Shown in pieces: positions 14,616-28,091 of a DNA stretch of 64,000 nt; the first letter of the stretch is position 1; each line of letters starts with the position of its first letter. This DNA is from Aestuariivivens sediminis (lineage in GTDB: Bacteria > Bacteroidota > Bacteroidia > Flavobacteriales > Flavobacteriaceae). Position numbers and translations under genes: made by a program. The notes below the pieces were generated by a model, which saw nothing but the letters and a program-made list of their open reading frames with translations, did no database searches and was not told the DNA's origin. The stretch lies in contig NZ_JAKMCP010000002.1 of assembly GCF_022662105.1 (NCBI RefSeq), positions 682,001-746,000 of the forward strand, read 5' to 3'.

Positions 14616-15248
14616 TTATTTTGGCTTTGAAGTATACCTTAAATAATTCGTGACCTCTTTATAACCATTAGGAAACTGAGCTTCTAATTCATCTCCCTTT
14701 AAATCAGGCGATATTATTACCTCTTCATCCTGTTTCCAATTGGCTGGTGTTACCACTGAATGCTTTTCGGTAAGTTGTAAAGCATCAATTACCCGTATTA
14801 TTTCGTCAAAATTCCTCCCCACCGCCATAGGATAAGTAAGGATTAAACGGATACGTTTGTCTGGTCCAATAATAAAAACTGACCTTACCGTAGAGTTATC
14901 AGAAACGTGCTCATGAATCATATTGTACAATTTAGCCACTTCTTTATTCTCGTCTGCAATTATAGGGAACTCAACCTTGGTATTCATTGATAATTCAATA
15001 TCCTTAATCCATCCGAAATGAGAGTCAAGAGAATCAACACTAAGAGCAATCGCCTTTATATTTCTCTCCTGAAATTCAGATTTTAATTTAGCAACAAGAC
15101 CTAATTCCGTGGTGCATACAGGAGTGTAGTCCTCTGGGTGAGAAAACAGCAATCCCCAATTGCCGTCTAACCAACTGTAGAAGTCAATTTCGCCCAAAGT
15201 CGTTCTTGCTCTGAAATTTGGGGCTTTAGTACCCAATGCAATTTCCAT
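14616..15248 (-). CDS. 1-Cys (Prx6-type) peroxiredoxin
   Basis: The 210-aa protein belongs to the AhpC/TSA superfamily. It reduces hydrogen peroxide and organic peroxides through a peroxidatic cysteine in PEDYTPVCTTELG (C45), with the conserved Pro and Thr before it. The length, the PVCTTE motif and the long C-terminal domain (LQLTEKHSVVTPANWK...) mark the Prx6 branch, which normally lacks a resolving cysteine; I see no other cysteine in the protein. It is divergent from the LytTR regulator gene, with a 113-bp shared upstream region. Cytoplasmic oxidative-stress defence is its likely role. Confidence 0.92.
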   Translation of the reverse strand: MEIALGTKAPNFRARTTLGEIDFYSWLDGNWGLLFSHPEDYTPVCTTELGLVAKLKSEFQERNIKAIALSVDSLDSHFGWIKDIELSMNTKVEFPIIADENKEVAKLYNMIHEHVSDNSTVRSVFIIGPDKRIRLILTYPMAVGRNFDEIIRVIDALQLTEKHSVVTPANWKQDEEVIISPDLKGDELEAQFPNGYKEVTNYLRYTSKPK

Positions 15249-15361: not shown

Positions 15362-16111
15362 ATGACTGCCATAATCGTAGATGACGAAAATAGACACCAT
15401 GAGACATTGGGTAAAATGTTAAAGACCTTTTGTCCTAATATTGAGGTTTTAGGGGATGCCTATTCTGTTGCTGAGGCGGTTGAATTAATTGAAAAGCATA
15501 CTCCGCAATTGGTGTTTTTAGATATAGAAATGCCTGGGGGTAATGGTTTTTCATTGTTTGAACATTTTGATGAGCCTCCATTTGAGGTCGTCTTCACCAC
15601 AGCCCATGATTTATATGCGATTAATGCTATTAAATATGCAGCCTTGGATTATTTGATGAAACCGATAAACATTAAGGAATTACAGGAAGCCGTAAGTAGG
15701 GCTGAGAAAGTTATCAGCAAAAAGAACGGGGCTATAAGCAATCAGAAAATTGATGTTTTAAGGTCTAATCTTAAACTGGAAGATAAGCGATTTACTAAAA
15801 TCGCTCTGCCATCATCTGATGGGATTGACTTTGTTGAAGCTGATTTCATTATTCGGGCAGAAGCAGAACGCTCCTACTCAAACTTCTATTTAAGGGATGG
15901 AAAGAAAGTTTTGGTGTCTAAACCTCTAAAAGAATACGAATCATTATTGGAACAATGTAATTTCTTCAGGATACACAAGTCTCACATGATAAACTTAAAT
16001 CATATTGAAAAGTATGTAAAGGGCAAAGGAGGATATGTTATTATGAATGATGGCTCCCATGTCGATGTTTCCGTTAGGAAGAAAGAAGACTTACTAAACA
16101 GGTTAATGTAA
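15362..16111 (+). CDS. LytTR-family response regulator
   Basis: The 249-aa protein has an N-terminal receiver domain and a C-terminal LytTR DNA-binding domain. Receiver landmarks are D7/D8, the phospho-acceptor D54 in VFLDIEMPGG, T80 and K100 (LMKP). The LytTR domain spans about residues 140-245 and carries FFRIHKSHMINLNHIEKY. LytTR proteins bind two 9-bp direct repeats spaced 12 bp apart. Exactly such pairs precede four operons downstream (21226, 22342, 23241, 26209), making this the likely activator. The gene converges with the giant LytS-type kinase gene and overlaps its stop by 9 bp; they are the natural two-component pair although not co-transcribed. Confidence 0.93.
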   Translation: MTAIIVDDENRHHETLGKMLKTFCPNIEVLGDAYSVAEAVELIEKHTPQLVFLDIEMPGGNGFSLFEHFDEPPFEVVFTTAHDLYAINAIKYAALDYLMKPINIKELQEAVSRAEKVISKKNGAISNQKIDVLRSNLKLEDKRFTKIALPSSDGIDFVEADFIIRAEAERSYSNFYLRDGKKVLVSKPLKEYESLLEQCNFFRIHKSHMINLNHIEKYVKGKGGYVIMNDGSHVDVSVRKKEDLLNRLM

Positions 16112-19100
16112 ATCATTGGGAAAGGATATAAGGACCTTAGTGCCCTTGGCTTGATTTCCATCCTTTAAATCAATAATATCAAATTGGTACTCCTTGGTCT
16201 CAGAGTTTGAATTTAATAATTCCAAACGGGCTTCTAGATTACTTATTGCTACTGATTTATGATTACTTCTTTTCTGAGTTGAGGCCGCTGCCCTTCCTAC
16301 CCCATTATCTATGATTGTACAAATAATTACATCTTGTTCTTCCTTTAAACTTATATCCAGATTTCCTTTTCTGTCTTTTATTTTACTTAATCCATGAATA
16401 ATGGCATTCTCGATAAATGGCTGTAAAAGCATTGGTGGTATTAAGGTATCATGAATGTTTTCTATTTCCACATTCAATTGATAGTCAAATACCTCATTGA
16501 AACGTATCCGTTCCAGGTAGAGGTATTTTTCTAAAAATTCTATCTCATCAGCTATCGATATAAATTCAGTGGTTGAATTTTCTAAATTTTCTCGCATTAA
16601 ACCCGCAAACTCTGAAATGAAATCAACAGCCTTTTCTGTTTCACTATTAAGAATGAAAGATTGGACCGAGCCAAGCGAATTGAAAATAAAATGAGGGTTC
16701 ATTTGGGAAGAAAGCATCATCATCTTAGCCTGCAATGCATCTTTTCGTTCTTCCTTTATTTGCTGCTGATGAAACTTATCTGCTTCTTTTTTTGCAAGCT
16801 TTAATTCCTCTTCAATCTGTTTCCTGGTCTCAATTTCCTGACGGAGTACTTTTGTTCTATCTCTAATTTTATCCTCCAGAAGTTCATTCATTTTACTAAG
16901 TTCATTCCTTGAAGCTTCCAACTCCACATTCAATCCTGTGGATGTTTCAAGTAAAAAGGTATTATAAATGGATATCGCTGCCTGGGCGCCAATTATTCTC
17001 AATATCTGCAGGTCGTTACCCCTGAAAAGACCAGCAATATGGCTGTTCTCCAAATATAACACCCCTATTAATTCCTTCTGCCTAATTAGAGGCATCACTA
17101 CAGCAGATTTTACTTCCATTTTTTCAAAATATGCCTCATTAACTAACCCTTTGTCATCCAAAACAAACTCCTTTTTAGAGTTGATTACATATTGTATCAG
17201 CTCATTTGGAACAGTTTTATATCCATTTAATGGCTTTCTGTTTAAGGGTTTTTGTTGCTTTCCAAGTTGAATCTCTGCTTCAACATAGGGGATGTTGTCC
17301 TCAACTAAAATTAAAGCGGATTTATCAGCCCCCGCATTTTCCATCACCACACTTAAAAGTCTCTTTATCAAGCTTTCTTTATCAACTTCAGCCGAAATGG
17401 CCTGGGTCGCTTTAATAAGACTGGAAGTCGTTAAATCACTTGTTTCTGTATTCGAAACTTCAAAGGTTATTGATGCATCCTTAATTTTACCGAGTGCATT
17501 CCATTCCCTGTAGAATGATTGGGCATTTTGCCTAAAACTAGTGGCTAAAAGTTCAAAACCACTAGAGTAAAAAACGTCTGAAACCACATCATAAGCAATT
17601 GCCTTAGCTCCAATAAACTGTCCTAATTCTGCCCATTTTAGAGTCTCATTAAAAAGCCCTAAGGACTTTTCAAGATTACCTGAACGGATTTCCATCAGCG
17701 TTTGAATTAAACAATACTCACTTTTGAAGTTTTCAGGCATGCTGGCAGCCCAAACCTCCAAAACACTTTGATTCTTTTTAATTTTATCTATCTGCTTTTC
17801 CGAAAGCTCTTTGTCTTGGTAAATGATACAAAGAGAATCTAAAAAATAGTGTTTAGGAACATGTGGTTGCGAAGATGCATATATGATAATTTCTTCATTA
17901 AGTTTAAGAAGTTTATGAGCCTCTTCAAAATTTTTCAGGATACACAACACCCAGCTTCTAAAAATATAGTGGTGTGATACCGCGGTATAAAACTTAATAT
18001 CTAGTAAAAATTTAAGAGCCTCCATTTCCAAATTTTCATACGAGACATCATAGCCATCGGTCAGTTTTAAGATACTACCTTTTAGGAGTTTCATTAAAGA
18101 CTGCATCCCTTGGTTTTTAATATCGCCCATAAACTTTATACTGTCATCACACAAACTCAGTGTCTTGTTGAGATTGTTCCCAACCAACATTGCATCCCTG
18201 ACCTTGGCATAAAAGGAATAGCTGGCATACGGTAAATCTCCTGTCTGTAAACCACTATAAACAGACTCGTCCAAATGGACAATACTATTGCGGATAGGCT
18301 CTTTGAAATGTTGAATGAATATGGGAAATACAGATAATGTCCTACTTCTGTATTTGTCGCTTTCAACATAGTTTAATAGGTCTACACCTATTTTACCCAA
18401 GTCATATCCCTTGTCAAAATCTTTATAGTAAGCCACAAGAAGTGACCCCATAAATACCAAAGCGAAGGGGGTGGAATTTGTAAAACCATGCTTTAATGTT
18501 TGGTTGGTCATTTTAAGAGTACTCCATACAAATAGATGCAAGTCAACGAAGTATGCAGAGGCATTCATGTTAACCAAGATATCCATAATGACAAGTTCTA
18601 CCTCATCCTCCATATTATCCTTTCTGAAATCTTCCAATGTTTTTTTATTGGAGATTAAATCGATATATAGGTTGTATTGCGTTTCGATTAATCCGTCAAG
18701 TGTCTTCTCATTGTAGTCTCCCTTTACTTCAATGTTTAAAAACTCTAAGGCAGACAAACCTGACTCTATGTTCTTTTCAAACATGGCATAACTCTCATAG
18801 AAAAGCATTTTCATTACTAAAACAGATGCTTTTTCAATGTTATTGTTGGAAAAACTAATGGCTCGGTTGGAATAATCCTCCCCATTAGCCATATCATTGA
18901 GTAGGAAATGGGATTCAGCTAAACCTTTTAGAAGTTTGAATGTTGAATTTTGTGTTTTGAATTTTTCATTTAGAAAAAGCCCCAACTCATAATAACCCTT
19001 ACTTGCCTCTGGGGTTGTGGATGAATTGACATCCGAACCCAATTGAATGATGTTCTCAATAATTTGATTGGAAAGAGTCTCACCTATTAGGTCCTTTGAA

Positions 19101-21169
19101 GAAATGAAATGGGATATTATTTCTCCTTTGGTGTATTGTAAATCGCATTTGTTTTCAAACAGTTCCTTTCCAACCATAAAATGCAATTCTTCTTCAGAAT
19201 GGGCAAAGGACGGAATAATCAATTGATAAGAAGCTTGTTGAACTCTGTCATGAACGAACTTATATTCAACAGTGTTGTCTGGCAGCTCTGCCCTGATAAT
19301 ATGACCACTTGCAGCAGAAACATTCAGAAGTATAATAACCATGTCCTTCCGAAAACCACTGATTTCCGCAATTAACCTGAGGTCAAATCTCCCTCCATTG
19401 AATGCCGCTAATTTGAAAAATATTTGTGTTTCAAAAGATAGTTTGTCAAGATTGTTCGCTACCAGGTCGAGGACGTTTTTAGATACTTCTTCATTCTGAA
19501 TTTTGGTTTCATCCCATCTCCATGTATCCTTTGTGTCGTCAAACTCCAGAAAGTTGTTTTGCTGGAGTGACAGTAAGAATTGTTTGGTATAAAAAGGATT
19601 GCCCTCAGTCTTGTTAAAGATTAATTTAGCCAATCCTTTTGATTCTTCTTTATTAATGTTTAAAGCATAGGAAACTAGAGCGTTGGTGTTATTGAGATGT
19701 AAGGGTTTTATGATATATTCTTCAGTGAAATCTTGAGCTAACATTTCGTTTCTGAAAAGACCAAACGGGTGACTAGTATCAATCTCATTCCCTCTAAATG
19801 CAAATAAGTATAAAATTCCATGACTGTTTGATGTAATCAGATACTTGATTAATTCTAAAGAAGGCACATCACACCATTGCCAATCATCAATAAACAATAA
19901 TAGGTAAAAGTCAAAATCCAAAAGAACATCGCAAAACTTCTTGAATACAAAGTTGAATCTGTTTCTAGTTTCTATAGGGTTAAGAACATCTATAGGCTCT
20001 AACTCGCCGACAAGCAGTTCTATGTTGGGTAACATATCTTTTAAAACAGCAACATTTCTGCCCAACTCTTTCAAAAGCTGCTGCCTTACAAGTGGAGCAT
20101 CAAATTTTGATTTTAGTAAGACATCTTGTTCAAATAAATGAAAAGCCGTTTTTAAACCAGAATATGGTGTTTGCTTATATTGGTCGAATTTTCCGTTTAA
20201 AAAAAGGCAATTCTCATTACTCAACTCTTTAGAGAATGCTTCAATTACACTAGTTTTTCCTACTCCCGAACTTCCGTTAATCAGTAAGAGTTGTGAACCC
20301 GTCCTATCCAGGTTTTCAAACTTATTCCTAAGTGTCTGTTTTATATCTTCCCTACCAAAAAGTATACTCCCAAAATCAATCACCCCAGGATTATAATTCA
20401 CACTGAGTTCGATGTAATCGTGCTTACCTTGAATATAGTTGTATTCCATTTTCTCCAGGTCCTTAATCAATCCCGAAAAGGACGTATACCTGTCTTTAGG
20501 TTGCTTCGACAACAAAACAGAAACCAGTTGGGATAGATTATGCGACACGTTTTGGTTAATTTCATCCAAAGGGATTAAAGAACTTGTTAAATGATGGTGC
20601 ATAAGCTCAAGTTTATCAGCCCCGTTAAAAGGAAAGATGCCAGATAAGTAATAGTATAAAACGACCCCCAACGAATAAAAGTCCCTTCTTTTATCTGGTA
20701 TCATATCATTGTTATGATAACATTCTGGTGGTAAATAAAAGAAGTTTTCCAATGGGGAGGACTCTAAATCGAAACAGTCAAAGTCATTCTGTACTAATGA
20801 ATTCCCCAGTATTTTAAGTCTATCATTTTCATCCAGCCAGAATCGCTGCGGCTGCAGTAATCCAATAAATAGATTTCGCTTGTGAAGAGCTTTAATCGTT
20901 TTGCAAATTGTAATTGCGGTATTAAGTAATAAAATAACCTGTTGGTCGTCATTGGGATTGTGAATCTCAAATGGGCGTAAATTGTGGTTGTCATATATAA
21001 TCAAGTCCTCTCTTTCAATCGCAGTTTTAGCAGGACTTAAAAAAACATCCCCTTCAATCTCTCTGGTCTGTATTTTTCTATTTGAGATTACTTGCTCAAT
21101 TATCTTGATACTACCATCAATCTGTTTATTGCTGATAACCACATCGCTAAACCTAACTGTAAAAGCCAT
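16103..21169 (-). CDS. giant hybrid sensor kinase: degenerate Ser/Thr kinase - AAA ATPase - GAF - LytS-type histidine kinase
   Basis: The 1688-aa cytoplasmic protein has this order. First, a protein-kinase-like region (~60-250) keeps LPPE and an RRDFYSLGVVLYYYLSG helix but lacks the HRD and DFG aspartates (IGLLQPQRF and ILGNSLV stand in their place). Next is an AAA/STAND-type ATPase with Walker A GSSGVGKT (K305) and Walker B LLLFIDDW (~427). A TPR-like helical middle (~650-1200) follows, then a GAF domain (~1255-1400), a coiled coil, a His_kinase domain with MNPHFIFN (H1493) and an HATPase (IENAIIHG, DNGVGRAAA). LytS-type kinases phosphorylate LytTR regulators, and the convergent gene at 15362 encodes one. 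No membrane segment was seen, so the signal is probably intracellular or comes from a partner protein. Confidence 0.92.
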   Translation of the reverse strand: MAFTVRFSDVVISNKQIDGSIKIIEQVISNRKIQTREIEGDVFLSPAKTAIEREDLIIYDNHNLRPFEIHNPNDDQQVILLLNTAITICKTIKALHKRNLFIGLLQPQRFWLDENDRLKILGNSLVQNDFDCFDLESSPLENFFYLPPECYHNNDMIPDKRRDFYSLGVVLYYYLSGIFPFNGADKLELMHHHLTSSLIPLDEINQNVSHNLSQLVSVLLSKQPKDRYTSFSGLIKDLEKMEYNYIQGKHDYIELSVNYNPGVIDFGSILFGREDIKQTLRNKFENLDRTGSQLLLINGSSGVGKTSVIEAFSKELSNENCLFLNGKFDQYKQTPYSGLKTAFHLFEQDVLLKSKFDAPLVRQQLLKELGRNVAVLKDMLPNIELLVGELEPIDVLNPIETRNRFNFVFKKFCDVLLDFDFYLLLFIDDWQWCDVPSLELIKYLITSNSHGILYLFAFRGNEIDTSHPFGLFRNEMLAQDFTEEYIIKPLHLNNTNALVSYALNINKEESKGLAKLIFNKTEGNPFYTKQFLLSLQQNNFLEFDDTKDTWRWDETKIQNEEVSKNVLDLVANNLDKLSFETQIFFKLAAFNGGRFDLRLIAEISGFRKDMVIILLNVSAASGHIIRAELPDNTVEYKFVHDRVQQASYQLIIPSFAHSEEELHFMVGKELFENKCDLQYTKGEIISHFISSKDLIGETLSNQIIENIIQLGSDVNSSTTPEASKGYYELGLFLNEKFKTQNSTFKLLKGLAESHFLLNDMANGEDYSNRAISFSNNNIEKASVLVMKMLFYESYAMFEKNIESGLSALEFLNIEVKGDYNEKTLDGLIETQYNLYIDLISNKKTLEDFRKDNMEDEVELVIMDILVNMNASAYFVDLHLFVWSTLKMTNQTLKHGFTNSTPFALVFMGSLLVAYYKDFDKGYDLGKIGVDLLNYVESDKYRSRTLSVFPIFIQHFKEPIRNSIVHLDESVYSGLQTGDLPYASYSFYAKVRDAMLVGNNLNKTLSLCDDSIKFMGDIKNQGMQSLMKLLKGSILKLTDGYDVSYENLEMEALKFLLDIKFYTAVSHHYIFRSWVLCILKNFEEAHKLLKLNEEIIIYASSQPHVPKHYFLDSLCIIYQDKELSEKQIDKIKKNQSVLEVWAASMPENFKSEYCLIQTLMEIRSGNLEKSLGLFNETLKWAELGQFIGAKAIAYDVVSDVFYSSGFELLATSFRQNAQSFYREWNALGKIKDASITFEVSNTETSDLTTSSLIKATQAISAEVDKESLIKRLLSVVMENAGADKSALILVEDNIPYVEAEIQLGKQQKPLNRKPLNGYKTVPNELIQYVINSKKEFVLDDKGLVNEAYFEKMEVKSAVVMPLIRQKELIGVLYLENSHIAGLFRGNDLQILRIIGAQAAISIYNTFLLETSTGLNVELEASRNELSKMNELLEDKIRDRTKVLRQEIETRKQIEEELKLAKKEADKFHQQQIKEERKDALQAKMMMLSSQMNPHFIFNSLGSVQSFILNSETEKAVDFISEFAGLMRENLENSTTEFISIADEIEFLEKYLYLERIRFNEVFDYQLNVEIENIHDTLIPPMLLQPFIENAIIHGLSKIKDRKGNLDISLKEEQDVIICTIIDNGVGRAAASTQKRSNHKSVAISNLEARLELLNSNSETKEYQFDIIDLKDGNQAKGTKVLISFPNDLH

Positions 21170-21225: not shown

Positions 21226-21296
21226 CACGTTGGGAAACAAATATGACCCGTTTGGAAATTACTACTTAAACAATATGGATTTCGCCAGTAGTTTTG
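21226..21296 (+). promoter_or_regulatory. LytTR-type promoter 1 (before 21316)
   Basis: The boxes are CACGTTGGG (21226-21234) and CCCGTTTGG (21247-21255), with their GTTs 21 bp apart. TAGTTTTG at 21289-21296 starts 39 bp after the second GTT and matches the Bacteroidota -7 consensus TAnnTTTG. It points at the small ORF and channel gene, away from the kinase. Confidence 0.8.
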
Positions 21297-21315
21297 TACA
21301 ATATTTCATTTTAAG

Positions 21316-21627
21316 ATGATAAATCAAAACATAGCTACCCTAAAGAATGAGTGTCTGCAACTTCTACAGTATTACCTGAAAAAGACAGACAGTATTATGA
21401 GAATATACAAGGACACGTCTGAAACAATGTATTTTCTTTTTGTTTTAAAGGGTACAAAAGCTTCAATTAAGAGCGAAACAAATCCAACTAAAACATTTTT
21501 GTTGACATGTATTAACACCCTAATTGAGGGGCAGAAGAATAGGTCTGGAAATTCAAAGCTCAATGCACTTAGAAATGAGATAGAGGAAGAACTTACCTTA
21601 CTGAAGCTAAGATATAATTTAGACTAA
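21316..21627 (+). CDS. hypothetical 103-aa protein of the LytTR regulon
   Basis: I do not recognise the family. The protein is soluble and mainly helical, with a lysine-rich C-terminal half (GQKNRSGNSKLNALRNEIEEELTLLKLRY). It is supported as a real gene by the promoter 20 bp upstream, a good ATG, and its position 8 bp before the channel gene. It could be a small partner of the channel. Confidence 0.6.
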   Translation: MINQNIATLKNECLQLLQYYLKKTDSIMRIYKDTSETMYFLFVLKGTKASIKSETNPTKTFLLTCINTLIEGQKNRSGNSKLNALRNEIEEELTLLKLRYNLD

Positions 21628-21635
21628 ATTCCTGA

Positions 21636-22340
21636 ATGATGTTTGGTTTCAACAAATTATACAGACAACATGTAAAACTTCGAAAGTTTCTATTTAAAGG
21701 AAAGACACAATCAAGTTGGTTTTTATTGAGCTTGGTTTTGCTCATATTACTTCCATTTCCGATTAGTTTATTTCCCAATAACAAAGTATTAATATTTGAG
21801 TTATCCATATCTCTTGTGGTCTTTTTTGGTGTCCAGCTTGTCTCTGATACGTTTAGGCATTTCTTAACTGGATTGTTTCTTGGTGGACTGGCTTTAACGT
21901 TTATCTGGATGCACTATTTGAACGGCCATATATTGCTAATCAAGATATTGAGACCCTTAGCCATTTCAGCATTTTTAATCTTTATATCGTATTACTTAAT
22001 GACTGTATTGAAACGTTCAAAAATCATTGACATTAATATGATCATGATAGCTATTTCCGGGTTCTTAATTATGGGGATTTTTGGTGGGCAATTATGCAAT
22101 CTTTTAAACTTGGCAGACCCTAATGCCTTTAATATTAATCCAGAAGATAATAGTATTTTTACTTTAACATACTACTCCTTCACAACACTCACTTCTTTAG
22201 GATTCGGTGATATCTTACCTCAATCTGCTCCCGCTCAATCCCTTTCCCTATTGATTGGGCTTTCTGGCCAATTATACATCACCATTCTAGTAGCTATTTT
22301 GGTGGGCAAATACCTCATGCATAACCAAAACAAAGTTTAA
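21636..22340 (+). CDS. potassium channel family membrane protein (Ion_trans_2)
   Basis: The 234-aa protein has about five hydrophobic segments followed by a pore loop and a last helix. The loop reads TLTYYSFTTLTSLGFGDILPQS, with the selectivity filter at about residues 183-191 (TSLGFGD for the canonical TVGYGD). The family conducts K+ or related cations across the inner membrane. A large ligand-gating RCK domain is absent. It lies directly after the 103-aa ORF in the LytTR-controlled unit, so ion flux appears to be part of the response run by the hybrid kinase. The stop is one base before the next LytTR box. Confidence 0.88.
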   Translation: MMFGFNKLYRQHVKLRKFLFKGKTQSSWFLLSLVLLILLPFPISLFPNNKVLIFELSISLVVFFGVQLVSDTFRHFLTGLFLGGLALTFIWMHYLNGHILLIKILRPLAISAFLIFISYYLMTVLKRSKIIDINMIMIAISGFLIMGIFGGQLCNLLNLADPNAFNINPEDNSIFTLTYYSFTTLTSLGFGDILPQSAPAQSLSLLIGLSGQLYITILVAILVGKYLMHNQNKV

Positions 22341-22341
22341 A

Positions 22342-22412
22342 TACGTTAGGAAAGCATTACATCACGTTAGGAAGTTTTCATGTGTAAACCCCTTGACTGT
22401 CCTATAGTTTTG
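22342..22412 (+). promoter_or_regulatory. LytTR-type promoter 2 (before 22439)
   Basis: The boxes are TACGTTAGG (22342-22350) and CACGTTAGG (22363-22371), 21 bp apart. TAGTTTTG at 22405-22412 starts 39 bp after the second GTT. The first box fits the published LytTR consensus [TA][AC][CA]GTTN[AG][TG] at every position; the second differs only at the first base. Confidence 0.85.
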
Positions 22413-22438
22413 AGGCATCAATTAATAGATTCAATATC

Positions 22439-23242
22439 ATGAAAACAACAAATCAAAAAACAATCATTTCAGTTTTAATCCTTCTTATAGGTTTAATTTC
22501 CAATGCCCAGCTTTCTGAAGAAGAGTTGGCGAAAATTGCACAAGACCCGATTGCGAATATTATTAGTGTTCCTTTTCAAAACAACATGACCTTTGGTATT
22601 GGTCCTTATGATCGAACATCAAATGTCACCAATATCCAACCCGTAATTCCTATGGCAAATGGTAAAATCATTGCCAGGGTAATCCTCCCAATTGTCAATC
22701 AGCCGAATATTTTTTCCGAATCAGGAAATTTTAAAGGGATTGGAGATGTCAACCTATCTGTGTTTTACACAAAAAAAGGTAAAGTGAGTTGGGGCTTAGG
22801 TCCAGTAATGAACATCCCCACAGCTGGCGATAATTTGGGCATTAAAGAATGGGGTGCTGGTCCATCCTTAGTCGGTGTTATTAAGCCAAGTAATTGGGTG
22901 ATTGGAATGCTGATTAATAATGTGTGGTCATTGGAAAGTCACAATTCTGCATTTACCATTCAACCCTTTGTCAATTACAATCTTCCAAAGGGATATTATC
23001 TATCAACCTCTCCAAAGGTGGTTGCTAATTGGAAAGCCGATTCGGATAATCGATGGACTATACCTATGGGCATGGGTGTTGGGAAACTTGTAAAACCAAA
23101 AGGCTTTCTTCCCTTCAATATACAAGTTGGTGCTGATTATCTTATTGAAAGTCCTGAGCTTAATGGAGGGAGTTGGATGTTGAAATTCTCCTTCACAGCA
23201 TTGATTCCCAAAGCCATATTTAAGCAGAATAAGAATCAATAA
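22439..23242 (+). CDS. outer-membrane transporter-like (neuromedin-U-type) beta-barrel protein
   Basis: The 267-aa protein has a signal peptide (MKTTNQKTIISVLILLIGLISNAQ) followed by alternating beta strands and an aromatic-rich end, as in the small outer-membrane barrel group often annotated as neuromedin U or transporter. Repeated segments such as VPFQNNMTFGIGPYDRTSNV and GPVMNIPTAGDNLG fit that group. The cargo is unknown. It has its own LytTR promoter. Its stop codon overlaps the first LytTR box of the sulfatase promoter, so regulated units are packed without spacing. Confidence 0.75.
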   Translation: MKTTNQKTIISVLILLIGLISNAQLSEEELAKIAQDPIANIISVPFQNNMTFGIGPYDRTSNVTNIQPVIPMANGKIIARVILPIVNQPNIFSESGNFKGIGDVNLSVFYTKKGKVSWGLGPVMNIPTAGDNLGIKEWGAGPSLVGVIKPSNWVIGMLINNVWSLESHNSAFTIQPFVNYNLPKGYYLSTSPKVVANWKADSDNRWTIPMGMGVGKLVKPKGFLPFNIQVGADYLIESPELNGGSWMLKFSFTALIPKAIFKQNKNQ

Positions 23243-23311
23243 CGTTGGGAAGACTAAAAACCCCCTTGGGAAATCCTTGCTAGTGTTTATGTGCATCCGT
23301 TAATAACATTG
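23241..23311 (+). promoter_or_regulatory. LytTR-type promoter 3 (before the sulfatase)
   Basis: The boxes are AACGTTGGG (23241-23249, overlapping the upstream stop codon) and a weaker CCCCTTGGG (23262-23270), again 21 bp apart. TAACATTG at 23304-23311 lies at the same 39-bp offset, with one mismatch to TAnnTTTG. Confidence 0.7.
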
Positions 23312-23353
23312 TATCAAAATTTAAAATAAATACAACCAAATAATTTAAACATC

Positions 23354-25123
23354 ATGAAAACAAATCAATTAAAATCACAAACATTTTCTTTGCTGGTATT
23401 GGTCATCCTTCTTCTGGGAGCTAAGTCATATGCTCAGCAGAAAACAGAAGACAAACCGAATTTCCTTGTTATCGTTGCAGATGATATGGGCTTTTCAGAT
23501 ATGGGGGCTTTCGGGGGAGAAATAAGTACCCCCAACTTAGACAAAATGGCCGAAGAGGGTACTCGTTATACCAATTACTATGTTGCTCCAACATGTTCCC
23601 CTACAAGGTCGATGTTAATGACGGGTATTGACAACCATTTGGTGGGGCTGGGAAATATGTATGAGTATCCAGCACCAAACCAACTCAATGAAAAAGGTTA
23701 TGAAGGGTATTTAACCAACGATGTGCCAACGGTGGCAGAAATCTTAAAGGAGAACGGTTACCATACTTATATGGCCGGAAAATGGCATTTAGGAAAGGAT
23801 AAAGAGCATATCCCAGCCGCACAGGGTTTTGAACGTTCATTCTCCATGTTATCTGGTTCTGGCAGTTATTTTTCATTCAACGGTCCAGATGAAGATGCCA
23901 CCCCTAATCATTTTGTTGAAGGAGAAACTTATTTGAATGAATTACCAAAGAATTACTATGCAACAACAACCTTTACTAACAAAATTATTTCTTATATCGA
24001 TGAGAATAAAGAGGACGGAAAACCATTCTTCGCTTATTTGGCACATCAGGCACCCCATGACCCATTAATGGCTCCTGAAAAATACTTGAGAAAATACAAA
24101 GGTTTCTTCGACAAGGGTTGGGATGTCCTAAGAGATGACCGACTTGAGAACATGGTGAAAATGGGCATTCTATCAGAAAAAACAGAGATGGGAGAGCGTT
24201 TATGGTACGTGCCTGGATTCGATAAGTTAAAGCCAGCTTCGCAAGTTGTGACCGCCAGAAAAATGGAAGTATATGCTGCGGTATTGGATTATATGGACAT
24301 GGAGATTGGGCGATTGATGGATTATCTGGAAAAAAATGACCTAAAGAAGAACACTTATATCGTATTCTTTTCGGATAACGGTCCAGATGTTAACGATAAA
24401 GCCTCAACTTACAAAAAATACCCAGCTACTGCCGCAGCGAATTGGATGGCAAAAACGTACATACACGGTTTCCAAAATTGGGGAAGAGCTGAGTCCTTTA
24501 CGGCATATGGTCCTTCTTGGGCACAAGTTTCGACTGCTCCATTTTACGGATTTAAGTACACGACTTACGATGGGGGTATAAGGTCCCCTTTAATAGTGAT
24601 TTCACCCCATCAAAAAAATAAAGGTTCAATCAACACCGAAGCCATTCTTCATGTTAAAGATATTGCACCAACATTTTTAGAGTTGGCCGGTGTTTCGCAA
24701 TCAGACCTCAACACATCAATAAAAATGCAAGGGAAATCATGGGTAGATATGCTACATCAAAGAGTCAAATCACCCAGAACCGAAAATGACTATTTAGGAA
24801 CAGAACTGTGGAATGCCAAATCCATTAGAAAGGGCGATTGGAAAATAGTAAATGTTCCTACACCAATAGGTACTGGTGAATGGCAACTATTCAATGTAAA
24901 AAATGACCCTGGTGAGCGTTTCGATTTGGCCCTGGAAAATCCAGAAAAATTGTCTGAGCTTAAAGCGGATTGGGATGAATATAAAATGGAGAACAACGTC
25001 ATCCTTCCCAATAGAACCACTTACGATGGAATGGAAGATAAATTACCTCCAAGACCACCCGTATATGCTCCAGATTTTGGAAGAGGTAGCGAACTAATAG
25101 AGAACATTAACACTAAACAATAA
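23354..25123 (+). CDS. arylsulfatase (S1 family)
   Basis: The 589-aa protein has a signal peptide ending around SYAQ. Metal ligands are in VADDMGFSDMG. The formylglycine motif is CSPTRSMLMTG, with C81 to be oxidised to formylglycine. AGKWHLGKDKEH, ahead of HQAPHDPL, and the FSDNGPD metal site follow. The whole pattern is close to periplasmic arylsulfatases of the AtsA type, which free sulfate from aryl or alkyl sulfate esters. A maturase is needed but is not in the window. The next gene (outer-membrane barrel) starts 4 bp downstream, and a LytTR promoter precedes it. This links sulfate-ester use to the hybrid-kinase system. Confidence 0.92.
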   Translation: MKTNQLKSQTFSLLVLVILLLGAKSYAQQKTEDKPNFLVIVADDMGFSDMGAFGGEISTPNLDKMAEEGTRYTNYYVAPTCSPTRSMLMTGIDNHLVGLGNMYEYPAPNQLNEKGYEGYLTNDVPTVAEILKENGYHTYMAGKWHLGKDKEHIPAAQGFERSFSMLSGSGSYFSFNGPDEDATPNHFVEGETYLNELPKNYYATTTFTNKIISYIDENKEDGKPFFAYLAHQAPHDPLMAPEKYLRKYKGFFDKGWDVLRDDRLENMVKMGILSEKTEMGERLWYVPGFDKLKPASQVVTARKMEVYAAVLDYMDMEIGRLMDYLEKNDLKKNTYIVFFSDNGPDVNDKASTYKKYPATAAANWMAKTYIHGFQNWGRAESFTAYGPSWAQVSTAPFYGFKYTTYDGGIRSPLIVISPHQKNKGSINTEAILHVKDIAPTFLELAGVSQSDLNTSIKMQGKSWVDMLHQRVKSPRTENDYLGTELWNAKSIRKGDWKIVNVPTPIGTGEWQLFNVKNDPGERFDLALENPEKLSELKADWDEYKMENNVILPNRTTYDGMEDKLPPRPPVYAPDFGRGSELIENINTKQ

Positions 25124-25127
25124 AATC

Positions 25128-26120
25128 ATGAAAAAAATAATATTAACATTCGTCTTAATGGTCATTACTTGCAATATTTATGCACAGTTGGATGGACCTA
25201 GAACCTATTGGGCATTACCTAAGAATCTGAACATTCTTAGTGCCCACGCAATCAATGGCAACGCAAATGCATCTTTGAATAATCTAACATTTGTTAACCC
25301 AAGTATCGTAGCAGAAAACAATTTATATTTATTGACCTATACCAGAAGCCAACCCATTTTTGGTCGGACCTTTTACTCCACCTTATTTTTACCAGCTGGA
25401 AATATAAATGCCACAGTAAATATAGACCCACAGGGGCCAGCTGCAACATCAGAAACGTTTTTTCAACATGGACTTGGAGACATCGTATGGTCTAATACCA
25501 TAAACATTTTTGGAGCAGAGGGATTAATGATTAAAGACTTTTTGAGACATGAAAATCGGACTCTTGTTTATTTTCAATCGGCTATTACTTTTCCGACGGG
25601 GCAATATGAGGAAGGCAACCCTATAAATATTGGCAGTAACCAATTTAAATATAAGTTTGGCTTACCTATGGTGCAACATCTTGGTAAATTCGTTGATGGT
25701 CAACGTTTATCACTAGAGGTTTTTCCTTCCTATACTCTAATTGGAGATAATAAGGATTTTCAAAACCAAAAGGTCAATCAAAAAGGAATGTTCACGATTG
25801 AATCGCATTTAACAAAGGACATAACTTCCAAAGCGTTCATGTCGTTGGATTATTCCTTTATGAGTGGTGGGGGTGCAGAATTTATTTCAAATGATACGGG
25901 TATGGTAATGAAAGAACAGGCGGCTCAAAATGTCCATTTGATTGGAGCCACTGTCAACTTTAATATCAATGACAGATTGAACCTTTTCCTAACCCATAAT
26001 CAAACATTCTCTTCTGGTAATGATAATGTGTCCTTAGACGGAACAGTAACAAAACTTACTCTAAGCTGGAGTTTTCACGATTTCCAGGAAAAGTTCAAAA
26101 GCTTTATAGAAAGTAATTAA
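25128..26120 (+). CDS. MetA-pathway-type outer-membrane barrel protein (transporter-like)
   Basis: The 330-aa protein has a signal peptide (MKKIILTFVLMVITCNIYAQ). It then starts LDGPRTYWALPKNLNILSAH and goes on as long amphipathic beta strands (SAITFPTGQYEEGN, GLPMVQHLG), resembling the phenol-degradation MetA-pathway barrel family (PF13557). These are thought to be outer-membrane channels for aromatic or hydrophobic compounds. It is encoded 4 bp after the arylsulfatase, so an aryl sulfate or its phenolic product is a plausible cargo (inference). A terminator follows at 26171. Confidence 0.75.
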   Translation: MKKIILTFVLMVITCNIYAQLDGPRTYWALPKNLNILSAHAINGNANASLNNLTFVNPSIVAENNLYLLTYTRSQPIFGRTFYSTLFLPAGNINATVNIDPQGPAATSETFFQHGLGDIVWSNTINIFGAEGLMIKDFLRHENRTLVYFQSAITFPTGQYEEGNPINIGSNQFKYKFGLPMVQHLGKFVDGQRLSLEVFPSYTLIGDNKDFQNQKVNQKGMFTIESHLTKDITSKAFMSLDYSFMSGGGAEFISNDTGMVMKEQAAQNVHLIGATVNFNINDRLNLFLTHNQTFSSGNDNVSLDGTVTKLTLSWSFHDFQEKFKSFIESN

Positions 26121-26170
26121 TAGGCAAAATTTCATGTTAGTTTAGTTTGATATTTAGTTAGTTTGGTTTG

Positions 26171-26203
26171 AATAGCAGCTTCCATTTGGAGCTGCTATTT
26201 TTT
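26171..26203 (+). terminator. rho-independent terminator after the sulfatase operon
   Basis: AATAGCAGCT pairs with AGCTGCTATT (10 bp; CC/GG can extend it into the loop) and is followed by a run of six Ts. It ends the sulfatase - barrel unit just before the fourth LytTR promoter. Confidence 0.88.
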
Positions 26204-26208
26204 ATTAA

Positions 26209-26279
26209 AACGTTAGGAAGTAAAACTGTTACGATGGGAAGATATTACGTGTAAAACCCTGATTGCTGGTATACTTTTG
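26209..26279 (+). promoter_or_regulatory. LytTR-type promoter 4 (before 26310)
   Basis: The boxes are AACGTTAGG (26209-26217, full consensus) and TACGATGGG (26230-26238, one core mismatch), 21 bp apart. TACTTTTG at 26272-26279 is a perfect TAnnTTTG at the same 39-bp offset. Confidence 0.8.
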
Positions 26280-26309: not shown

Positions 26310-26840
26310 ATGAAAGTATTAAATTTTTTATTCGCAGCACTTTTTTTAATCACTATTACAAGCTGTAGCAGTGCAAGAAGTACAACTCGACAAGGTGTAG
26401 ATTTGCAACAATACAGGTCTTTCACCTTAGTTGATAATGATGACACCTATCTGCCTCAGATAAGTAAGTTACACAAATCTCAAATTGAAGATGCCATTAC
26501 ATCTGAAATCAAGAAAATTTCGCCTGAAAATTTAGGGGTAACTGGAGCCGATGTTTTAGTAAACTACTTTGTAGTGGTCGATACAAAAACAGACGTTCAG
26601 ACCTACAATGACTATTACAGCCGTAGATGGAGAAATCTTCCCATTAATGTTGAACTTACTTATTACAAGGAAGGGACATTAATTGTAGATATGATTGATG
26701 CCAAAACAAATAAAACCATTTGGAATGGCTCAACCTCATCCGTGGTCACCAGAAATTCAATGGAGGTGGAACGCACCATCAATAAGGCCGTGGCTTCATT
26801 GTTTGAACAATTCCAAAAAGATAGAACTCCTAAAAGCTAA
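26310..26840 (+). CDS. DUF4136 lipoprotein
   Basis: The 176-aa protein has a lipoprotein signal peptide with lipobox ITSC (C19), followed by a DUF4136-like domain (DLQQYRSFTLVDND...LIVDMIDAKTNKTIWNGS). The family is widespread in Bacteroidota as periplasmic lipoproteins without a known biochemical role. It starts the fourth LytTR-controlled operon and ends 5 bp before the next barrel gene. The envelope location fits the envelope theme of the whole regulon. Confidence 0.82.
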   Translation: MKVLNFLFAALFLITITSCSSARSTTRQGVDLQQYRSFTLVDNDDTYLPQISKLHKSQIEDAITSEIKKISPENLGVTGADVLVNYFVVVDTKTDVQTYNDYYSRRWRNLPINVELTYYKEGTLIVDMIDAKTNKTIWNGSTSSVVTRNSMEVERTINKAVASLFEQFQKDRTPKS

Positions 26841-26845
26841 GAGCA

Positions 26846-27739
26846 ATGAAGACTATATTTAATATACTAGCTATCTGTTTTTTAACGATAACTAGTCTAA
26901 ACGCTCAAGAAAAAGTCGACCTGTTTGGGATTAGTTTCATACATAATCCAGGAGTAGGCTTGATGGACCCAGCCAATGAGAATTTGGAATCCATTGACTT
27001 AAAAGTAACGGAGTTGGACGCTTTTATAAAGTACCCTATTAAACTTGGAAATGATAAAACCGTATTGGTAAATGCATTGAAATGGCACTTTGTAAAAGCT
27101 CCATTTGATGATTTGCCAAATGAAAGAAGCTTTGAGGCCAATTTACATTCCATTCAATACGATTTTATGATTATGCACAGACTGTCCCAGAAATGGCAAT
27201 TACTGGCAAGTCTAAGACCCACATTAGCTTCTAATTTTAAAGATGGAATCAGTTCGGATGACTTCTTTTTCCAAGGAATGTTGGGCTTCAAATATATAAG
27301 AAATGAGTATATGAATTATGGTGGTGGAGTATCATATACCAATGGTTTTGGTGAACCAAATCTGGTTCCTGTTTTATTGTTCAACTACCAAACAGAAAAA
27401 ATTAAAACCGAAGTAAAAGCACCAATCTCCTTAATTTTTACTTACTCAGCTAATAAAGCCATATATGGATTTCAAGCTAAGCTAGATGGGGGTCAATATC
27501 ATTTAGCTAGTCAAGAAGGTGATGGAACAATCATAATTAATAATGAGACCGTAAAGTTTTCACGATATAATCTTGGGCCAACACTAGGCTGGAAAATAAA
27601 TGACTCATCACGTTTTGAGGTATCAGCTGGTATTTCATTAAAGAGAACCTTAAAAGTTATAGATATTGATGGTCTGGAATCGGACTATGATTTGAAAAAT
27701 GGATTGTTTTTTAAAACCAGCTTCATCTTCGGTAAATAA
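26846..27739 (+). CDS. outer-membrane beta-barrel protein (DUF6268-like)
   Basis: The 297-aa protein has a signal peptide (MKTIFNILAICFLTITSLNAQ) and a strand-rich body. IKYPIKLGNDKTVLVNALKW and the aromatic C-terminal strand (GLFFKTSFIFGK) are typical of small Bacteroidota barrels such as DUF6268. Its function is unknown. It lies between the DUF4136 lipoprotein (5-bp gap) and DUF983 (10-bp gap) in one unit. The family name is a pattern-based guess; barrel topology is more certain. Confidence 0.65.
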   Translation: MKTIFNILAICFLTITSLNAQEKVDLFGISFIHNPGVGLMDPANENLESIDLKVTELDAFIKYPIKLGNDKTVLVNALKWHFVKAPFDDLPNERSFEANLHSIQYDFMIMHRLSQKWQLLASLRPTLASNFKDGISSDDFFFQGMLGFKYIRNEYMNYGGGVSYTNGFGEPNLVPVLLFNYQTEKIKTEVKAPISLIFTYSANKAIYGFQAKLDGGQYHLASQEGDGTIIINNETVKFSRYNLGPTLGWKINDSSRFEVSAGISLKRTLKVIDIDGLESDYDLKNGLFFKTSFIFGK

Positions 27740-27749
27740 ACCTATTCTT

Positions 27750-28091
27750 ATGAAACTAATCAATATATTAAAAAATAAATGTCCAAACTGTTCAAAAGGA
27801 GAAGTGTTCACAAACCTATACAGTTTGGGCATACCGAAAATGAATGATTCTTGTAAAAAATGCGGTTTGAATTACACCAGAGAGCCAGGGTTTTTCTGGG
27901 GAGCAATGTACGTAAGCTATGCTTTGGCCGTAGCTGAAAGCATAGTAACATTTATTATTTCTTCCTTCTTTTTAACAGAACTTTTTGATCTTAAAAAAAT
28001 AATGGTTATTGCTATTGTCCTGTTACTATTGGCTCCCTTAAATATGAGATTTTCAAGAATTATTTGGTTATCCCTATTTAAGAATTCTTAA
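27750..28091 (+). CDS. DUF983 family protein (zinc-ribbon plus two TM helices)
   Basis: The 113-aa protein begins with two CxxC pairs (CPNCSKG and CKKCG) that form a zinc ribbon, then REPGFFWGAMYVSYAL and two membrane helices, the layout of DUF983. The open frame continues upstream into the preceding gene, but ATG 27750, ten bases after that stop, is the natural start. The role is unknown. It is the last gene of the LytTR-controlled region and is followed by a hairpin that can stop both strands. Confidence 0.85.
   Translation: MKLINILKNKCPNCSKGEVFTNLYSLGIPKMNDSCKKCGLNYTREPGFFWGAMYVSYALAVAESIVTFIISSFFLTELFDLKKIMVIAIVLLLLAPLNMRFSRIIWLSLFKNS

Follow-up and report, generated by a model that had tools for sequence, protein, structure and literature searches.

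Binding sites of LytTR-type regulators have the nine-letter consensus [TA][AC][CA]GTTN[AG][TG]. Cyanobacteria encode proteins that combine a Ser/Thr kinase, an ATPase, a GAF domain and a histidine kinase, which we take to be the HstK type. The accessible portions of the published work describe direct repeats for AgrA (PMC4227749), LytTR promoters in which most repeats are separated by 12 bp and strongly favor a position 10 bp upstream of the -35 element, and Bacteroides promoters similar to those of the LRS, written TGTA/TGTG-19 bp-TATCTTTG (both PMC6193735). The same portions report pairs of LytS kinases and LytTR regulators in gamma-proteobacteria (PMC5552118) and give the flavobacterial sigma-A box as TAnnTTTG at -12 to -5 (PMC9723704). 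We analyzed a 64,000-nucleotide stretch of the Aestuariivivens sediminis genome, referred to here as the window, in which four operons beside a LytTR regulator and a giant sensor carry promoters with this spacing layout. As far as the accessible descriptions of AgrA and of the repeats in PMC6193735 go, the layout is equal; unlike the published promoters, the window operator is extended by GGAA and is combined with a TAnnTTTG -7 box. Direct repeats precede the promoter in LRS as well, including the LRS-like operons of Bacteroides in the part of PMC6193735 available. Unlike LRS, however, the window regulator is not paired with an inhibitory membrane protein but adjoins a sensor kinase, forming a two-component system, and the autoregulation that marks an LRS is not seen. 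A box search with a model built from other genomes (R2, below) finds no box ahead of the regulator gene or the sensor gene in the window, and thus feedback is not evident. A literature search that excluded most subscription journals returned no description of a flavobacterial LytTR regulon or of a sulfatase linked to LytTR. The window gene set with its sensor does not appear in the accessible parts of the LytTR promoter literature examined, nor does the gene set appear as one regulon among the titles and abstract openings of the wider LytTR literature. The locus would be a new regulon of an already known type, the LytTR type, and a sensor with a pseudokinase is unusual.

Upstream of each of the four operons lies a ACGTTNGGAA box pair with a 21-bp period and a TAnnTTTG at constant distance. 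Counting each box from the A of ACGTT, with the second box starting 21 bp after the first, the pairs begin at 21227 and 21248 (P1, 21227..21296), 22343 and 22364 (P2, 22343..22412), 23242 and 23263 (P3, 23242..23311), and 26210 and 26231 (P4, 26210..26279), all on the + strand. The corresponding -7 boxes occupy 21289-21296, 22405-22412, 23304-23311 and 26272-26279, so that TAnnTTTG starts 62 bp after the first A, or 39 bp after the second GTT, at all four promoters. These positions, the period and the +39 offset had been listed by a first-pass annotation of the DNA and were borne out at every operon. The promoters that it describes as identical are alike in sequence without being identical. 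The first boxes match ACGTTRGGAAR at 11/11 letters in all four, but the second boxes match at 9, 11, 9 and 10 of 11 (P1 to P4), so "identical" is too strong, and the -7 box of P3 reads TAACATTG.

Could such box pairs arise by chance? Searched with a tolerance of up to 3 mismatches, the window contains 4 matches to CGTTNGGAAN{12}CGTTNGGAA against 0.45 expected, and none of 100 shuffled window sequences reached 4. Across the whole A. sediminis genome (3,932,727 bases in 13 contigs), the same tolerance gives 38 matches vs 39 for a reversed control pattern, which is the noise level; the signal therefore owes its strength to the strict matches and how they cluster, to the constant -7 offset and to the conservation. 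When only one mismatch is allowed, the genome holds 4 matches, which are the four window sites, all inside 5.1 kb and each directly upstream of genes, and the reversed control has none. In 199 genomes of the family, a count that leaves out the A. sediminis genome and one tandem repeat (G097), the one-mismatch pattern gives 17 matches vs 19 for the control, again noise. The first-pass annotation had also called for a genome-wide two-box scan. Model R2, built only from 18 non-window sites of five other genomes, returned exactly the four window sites from the whole genome (P1, E 1.8e-8; P2, 1.9e-11; P3, 1.3e-7; P4, 7.6e-12), with the next match at 0.47 and no further site in the 64-kb window. The strict matches, the shuffles and the recovery by R2 lead us to reject a chance origin.

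The sites used for this model come from relatives of the sensor. A search with the sensor sequence found five relatives at 40-54% identity, all from MAGs: Croceivirga (L087), Winogradskyella (L088), Flavobacteriaceae (L089), Bacteroidia (L090) and Lewinella (L091); two remote relatives, L092 and L093, were left out. Paired boxes with TAnnTTTG precede orthologous genes in 5/5 of these genomes, and thus the locus passes the check fixed beforehand, namely that the boxes should recur in relatives ahead of the orthologous operons. Together with the R2 recovery of the four sites, this conservation supports the earlier proposal that the four units form one regulon, a reading that comparative genomics makes well supported. 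The resulting alignment contains 22 sites from six genomes and is gapless over 83 bp. A recognizable member of the gene set follows 20 of the 22 sites. The third L087 site is followed by a contig end, and the second L088 site precedes a remnant of the gene for a 267-aa protein of the set. In that remnant (L088 513-848, - strand) the promoter is retained and the gene has lost its middle, either by true deletion or through a fault in MAG assembly. Least secure is the assignment of the fourth L090 site, which precedes a DUF4136 match (28% over 98 residues, E 5e-7). The 267-aa and sulfatase genes of L089, separated by about 20 bp, have one site in common.

Scanning by DNA pattern alone also located sites on other contigs. 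Two in the Lewinella genome precede the orthologues of the 267-aa gene (L107) and the sulfatase gene (L101), and one in the Croceivirga genome precedes that of the DUF6268 gene (L120). Model R1, a sequence-only model built from all 22 sites, was run on nine genomes; it recovered the 22 at E ≤1.2e-9, added L166 as a single further site (E 4.1e-5), and gave nothing else below 0.0496. L166 was held out of R2, which scores it at E 2.1e-8 on its 5.5-kb contig. It is flanked by the Lewinella regulator orthologue and by a divergent operon; the 137-aa second gene of that operon is orthologous to a box-preceded gene in L090. A Lewinella pair (L121, score 21, offset 62) stays outside the alignment, with no R1 match there at E ≤1, and loci scoring 20-21 whose -7 match falls at a different offset, L065, L066, L070, L071, L073, L074, L076, L079 and L105 among them, were not counted.

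The crowding of all four window sites within 5.1 kb might suggest recent duplications of one promoter segment that carry no regulatory meaning. But the spacers between the boxes vary while the boxes and their spacing are conserved, and genomes whose sensors are only 40-54% identical have these sites ahead of the corresponding genes, some of them on other contigs. This origin is highly improbable, and we reject it given the diverged spacers in the gapless 22-site alignment.

The conserved layout consists of a 9-mer, 12 bp, a second 9-mer, 10 bp, a weak TG-containing -33 region, 19 bp and TAnnTTTG. All 22 sites contain a pair of 9-bp direct repeats separated by 12 bp, the first matching the LytTR consensus at 7-9 of 9 letters and the second at 6-9 of 9. 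At box positions the 22 sites carry a mean of 1.47 bits of information, vs 1.77 at the fixed -7 positions and 0.38 elsewhere. TAnnTTTG matches at least 5/6 letters at the same offset in 22/22 sites, most of the relatives' sites having been chosen by a score that included the -7 box with 8 offsets allowed. The -33 element fits in position and is weak in sequence (T in 13/22 at column 46; G in 18/22 at column 47). This geometry bears on the direction of control. CoxC, a LytTR protein, represses by covering the -35 box, according to the accessible part of its description (PMC11347149), and the window regulator could likewise repress, or the boxes could serve a repressor. Here, however, the boxes end upstream of -33 at the 10-bp distance seen in positively controlled LytTR promoters, as far as PMC6193735 was available, and we consider repression unlikely. 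Activation is the reading that we carry forward.

What would be activated? Operon limits in the window are predicted from gene spacing, and all target genes lie on the + strand. The P1 operon begins with a 103-aa protein (21316..21627) that has no Pfam or NCBIfam family; it is predicted to form four helices, and a search with its fold returned nothing at E ≤0.001. Next is a K+-channel-like protein (21636..22340; Ion_trans_2, Pfam 5.2e-9) with weak similarity to SthK. P2 precedes the 267-aa protein (22439..23242), which has a signal-like N-terminus and no Pfam family and may be an outer-membrane barrel. P3 precedes an arylsulfatase (23354..25123; Pfam Sulfatase 8.5e-68) with a C-S-P-T-R segment, followed by a Phenol_MetA_deg-type outer-membrane protein (25128..26120; Pfam 1.6e-11). 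The closest solved chain to the arylsulfatase is 1hdh_A, an arylsulfatase (E 1.5e-133, residues 33-550), presumably of the AtsA type. The two have the C-x-P-x-R segment in common; unlike 1hdh, the window enzyme is encoded within a LytTR-type regulon and adjoins an outer-membrane protein gene. P4 precedes a DUF4136 lipoprotein-like protein (26310..26840; Pfam 4.3e-27), which spacing places in one operon with a DUF6268 protein (26846..27739; Pfam 3.5e-19) and, as the probable end, a DUF983 protein (27699..28091; Pfam 2.4e-6) whose true start is probably downstream of 27739. The order DUF4136-DUF6268-DUF983 recurs in L089 and L180 with a sulfatase-modifying-factor gene interposed, which fits a formylglycine sulfatase. 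A DUF3300-like protein with YPYW-like repeats is found beside DUF4136 at L180 571-1836 and L091 5264-6514, and is missing from the window operon.

The first-pass annotation placed a LytTR regulator and a LytS-type kinase next to the four operons, and Pfam agrees on both. The regulator (15362..16111, + strand), the proposed activator, consists of a receiver (Response_reg 6.6e-20) and a LytTR domain (5.8e-14). Four orthologues that we compared are 69-81% identical, and the receiver D54 and the FFRxHKS segment of the LytTR domain are invariant in 5/5 regulators. A gene for a 1-Cys-type peroxiredoxin (window 14616-15248) is divergent from the regulator gene; it is kept as a neighbor in L087 and L088 and has no box. 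The sensor (1,688 aa; 16103..21169, - strand) is encoded convergently with the regulator, the two genes overlapping by 9 bp at their ends. In one chain, Pfam finds a partial Pkinase domain, an AAA_16 ATPase, GAF and a LytS-type His_kinase (PF06580, 7.4e-22), with a long middle region after the ATPase. The NPHFIFNSL segment is kept in the four sensors with a LytS-type domain (window, L087, L088, L089), and the L091 sensor is cut ahead of its His_kinase domain.

"Giant hybrid kinase," as the protein had been called, overlooks that its Ser/Thr kinase domain lacks the catalytic residues. The HxD...N catalytic loop and the DF[GSD] (DFG-type) residues are found in 0/6 box-bearing genomes vs 12/12 other family members, the reference being two cyanobacterial and ten same-phylum members, with L170 dropped because another reading frame had been picked. 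Since these residues are missing in 6/6, we call the domain, at the sensor N-terminus (residues 1-268), a pseudokinase, as predicted from its residues. Its predicted structure matches kinase folds (best E 7.5e-8, TM about 0.48), matches that are only supportive because confidence in the model is low (mean pLDDT 63). The sensor has the same layout as the HstK-type proteins and is 26-28% identical to Calothrix and Nostoc proteins over 81-85% of its length. It differs from them in that its kinase domain, like those of the other box-bearing genomes (6/6), has no HxD, N or DFG-type residues, and in its LytS-type output domain, which L087, L088 and L089 also have. The arrangement in L090 (1617-9552) is split: the end of the giant protein reads as a different, HisKA-like kinase part with a receiver, and after it come a REC-guanylate cyclase protein and, adjoining that, a REC-His_kinase protein of its own that carries the LytS-type domain. 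By comparison, the window sensor looks like a fused form of this relay.

Which protein reads the boxes? The operator may be real and yet be used by another LytTR protein, the neighboring pair being incidental or cross-talking. The genome does encode other LytTR candidates (a profile of the regulator gave 30 at a first look, of which 6 were scored and 1 reached E ≤1e-60), so another could bind the boxes. A scan across the class with stricter filters (385 genomes) found a set of sites only in A. sediminis and one weak match each in three of the 384 others. At L237/L241, a box pair lies ahead of a kinase operon whose last gene is another LytTR regulator; at L241 (7232-13953), from another genome of the class, a perfect ACGTTGGGAA pair precedes a multi-kinase operon ending in this gene. 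The operator type is therefore common to at least one other LytTR system and is not private to the window regulator. At L238 and L239, none of 15 query proteins has a match in the surrounding 14-15 kb.

Against a different reader, the boxes travel with the regulator-sensor pair. A regulator orthologue is present in 5/6 box-bearing genomes; in the sixth, L089, the contig stops within the sensor gene, and the count covers that contig only. Three of three congeners have neither a sensor at E ≤1e-100 nor a site better than E 0.0496 (R1). Moreover, R1 gave no site at E ≤1 in 11-20 kb stretches around 11 other sensor relatives, one per genome. We thus regard another reader as improbable and infer that the regulator starting at 15362, rather than another LytTR protein, binds the boxes.

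How widely is the system distributed? Among 395 genomes of the phylum, a regulator at orthologue level occurs only in A. sediminis (515 bits; next best 267). A sensor-like protein at E ≤1e-200 is encoded by 12/395, A. sediminis included. The 11 sensor relatives checked above represent 11 of 12 further places in 11 phylum genomes (all but G391:C46), and with no R1 site at any of them, the box is rejected as a general mark of the sensor family. The 267-aa family is present in 13/395 genomes, again including A. sediminis. R1 found no site at E ≤1 in 15 loci. Thirteen of these take in every one of the 13 other places where the family occurs (some only 3 kb), and 2 surround the best-matching regulator paralogues; the box is rejected as a mark of this family, too. 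In 6/8 surroundings examined that lack the regulon (L225, L227, L229-L232), 267-aa homologues lie <16 kb from sulfatase matches.

Altogether, the locus very probably encodes a local two-component regulon that runs from the sensor through the LytTR regulator to the four operons. On receiving its signal, the giant sensor would phosphorylate the regulator encoded beside it. At each operon, a regulator dimer on one face of the DNA would bind both direct repeats (roughly -75 to -67 and -54 to -46) and would help the housekeeping sigma factor at the TAnnTTTG promoter, so coordinating the K+ channel with the envelope proteins, the arylsulfatase and the lipoproteins. The purpose may be the scavenging of sulfate esters at the envelope, which is a guess. 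It is quite possible, if somewhat doubtful, that the pseudokinase serves as the sensor input, its N-terminal Ser/Thr kinase fold acting as a ligand- or nucleotide-sensing module that controls the STAND-like ATPase and, via GAF, the LytS-type kinase, and that the sensor and the regulator travel from lineage to lineage within the phylum together with their promoter-tagged targets, as a single regulon whose members retain the operator even when scattered.

What does the locus mean for this organism and its relatives? The analysis predicts a complete and very small regulon, with four operons, a precise operator and no other strong site in the genome. It would tie DUF4136, DUF6268, the 103-aa protein and, in relatives, the DUF3300-like protein to one circuit with an arylsulfatase. 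Finally, it may offer a natural test case for the role of a pseudokinase in a two-component sensor.
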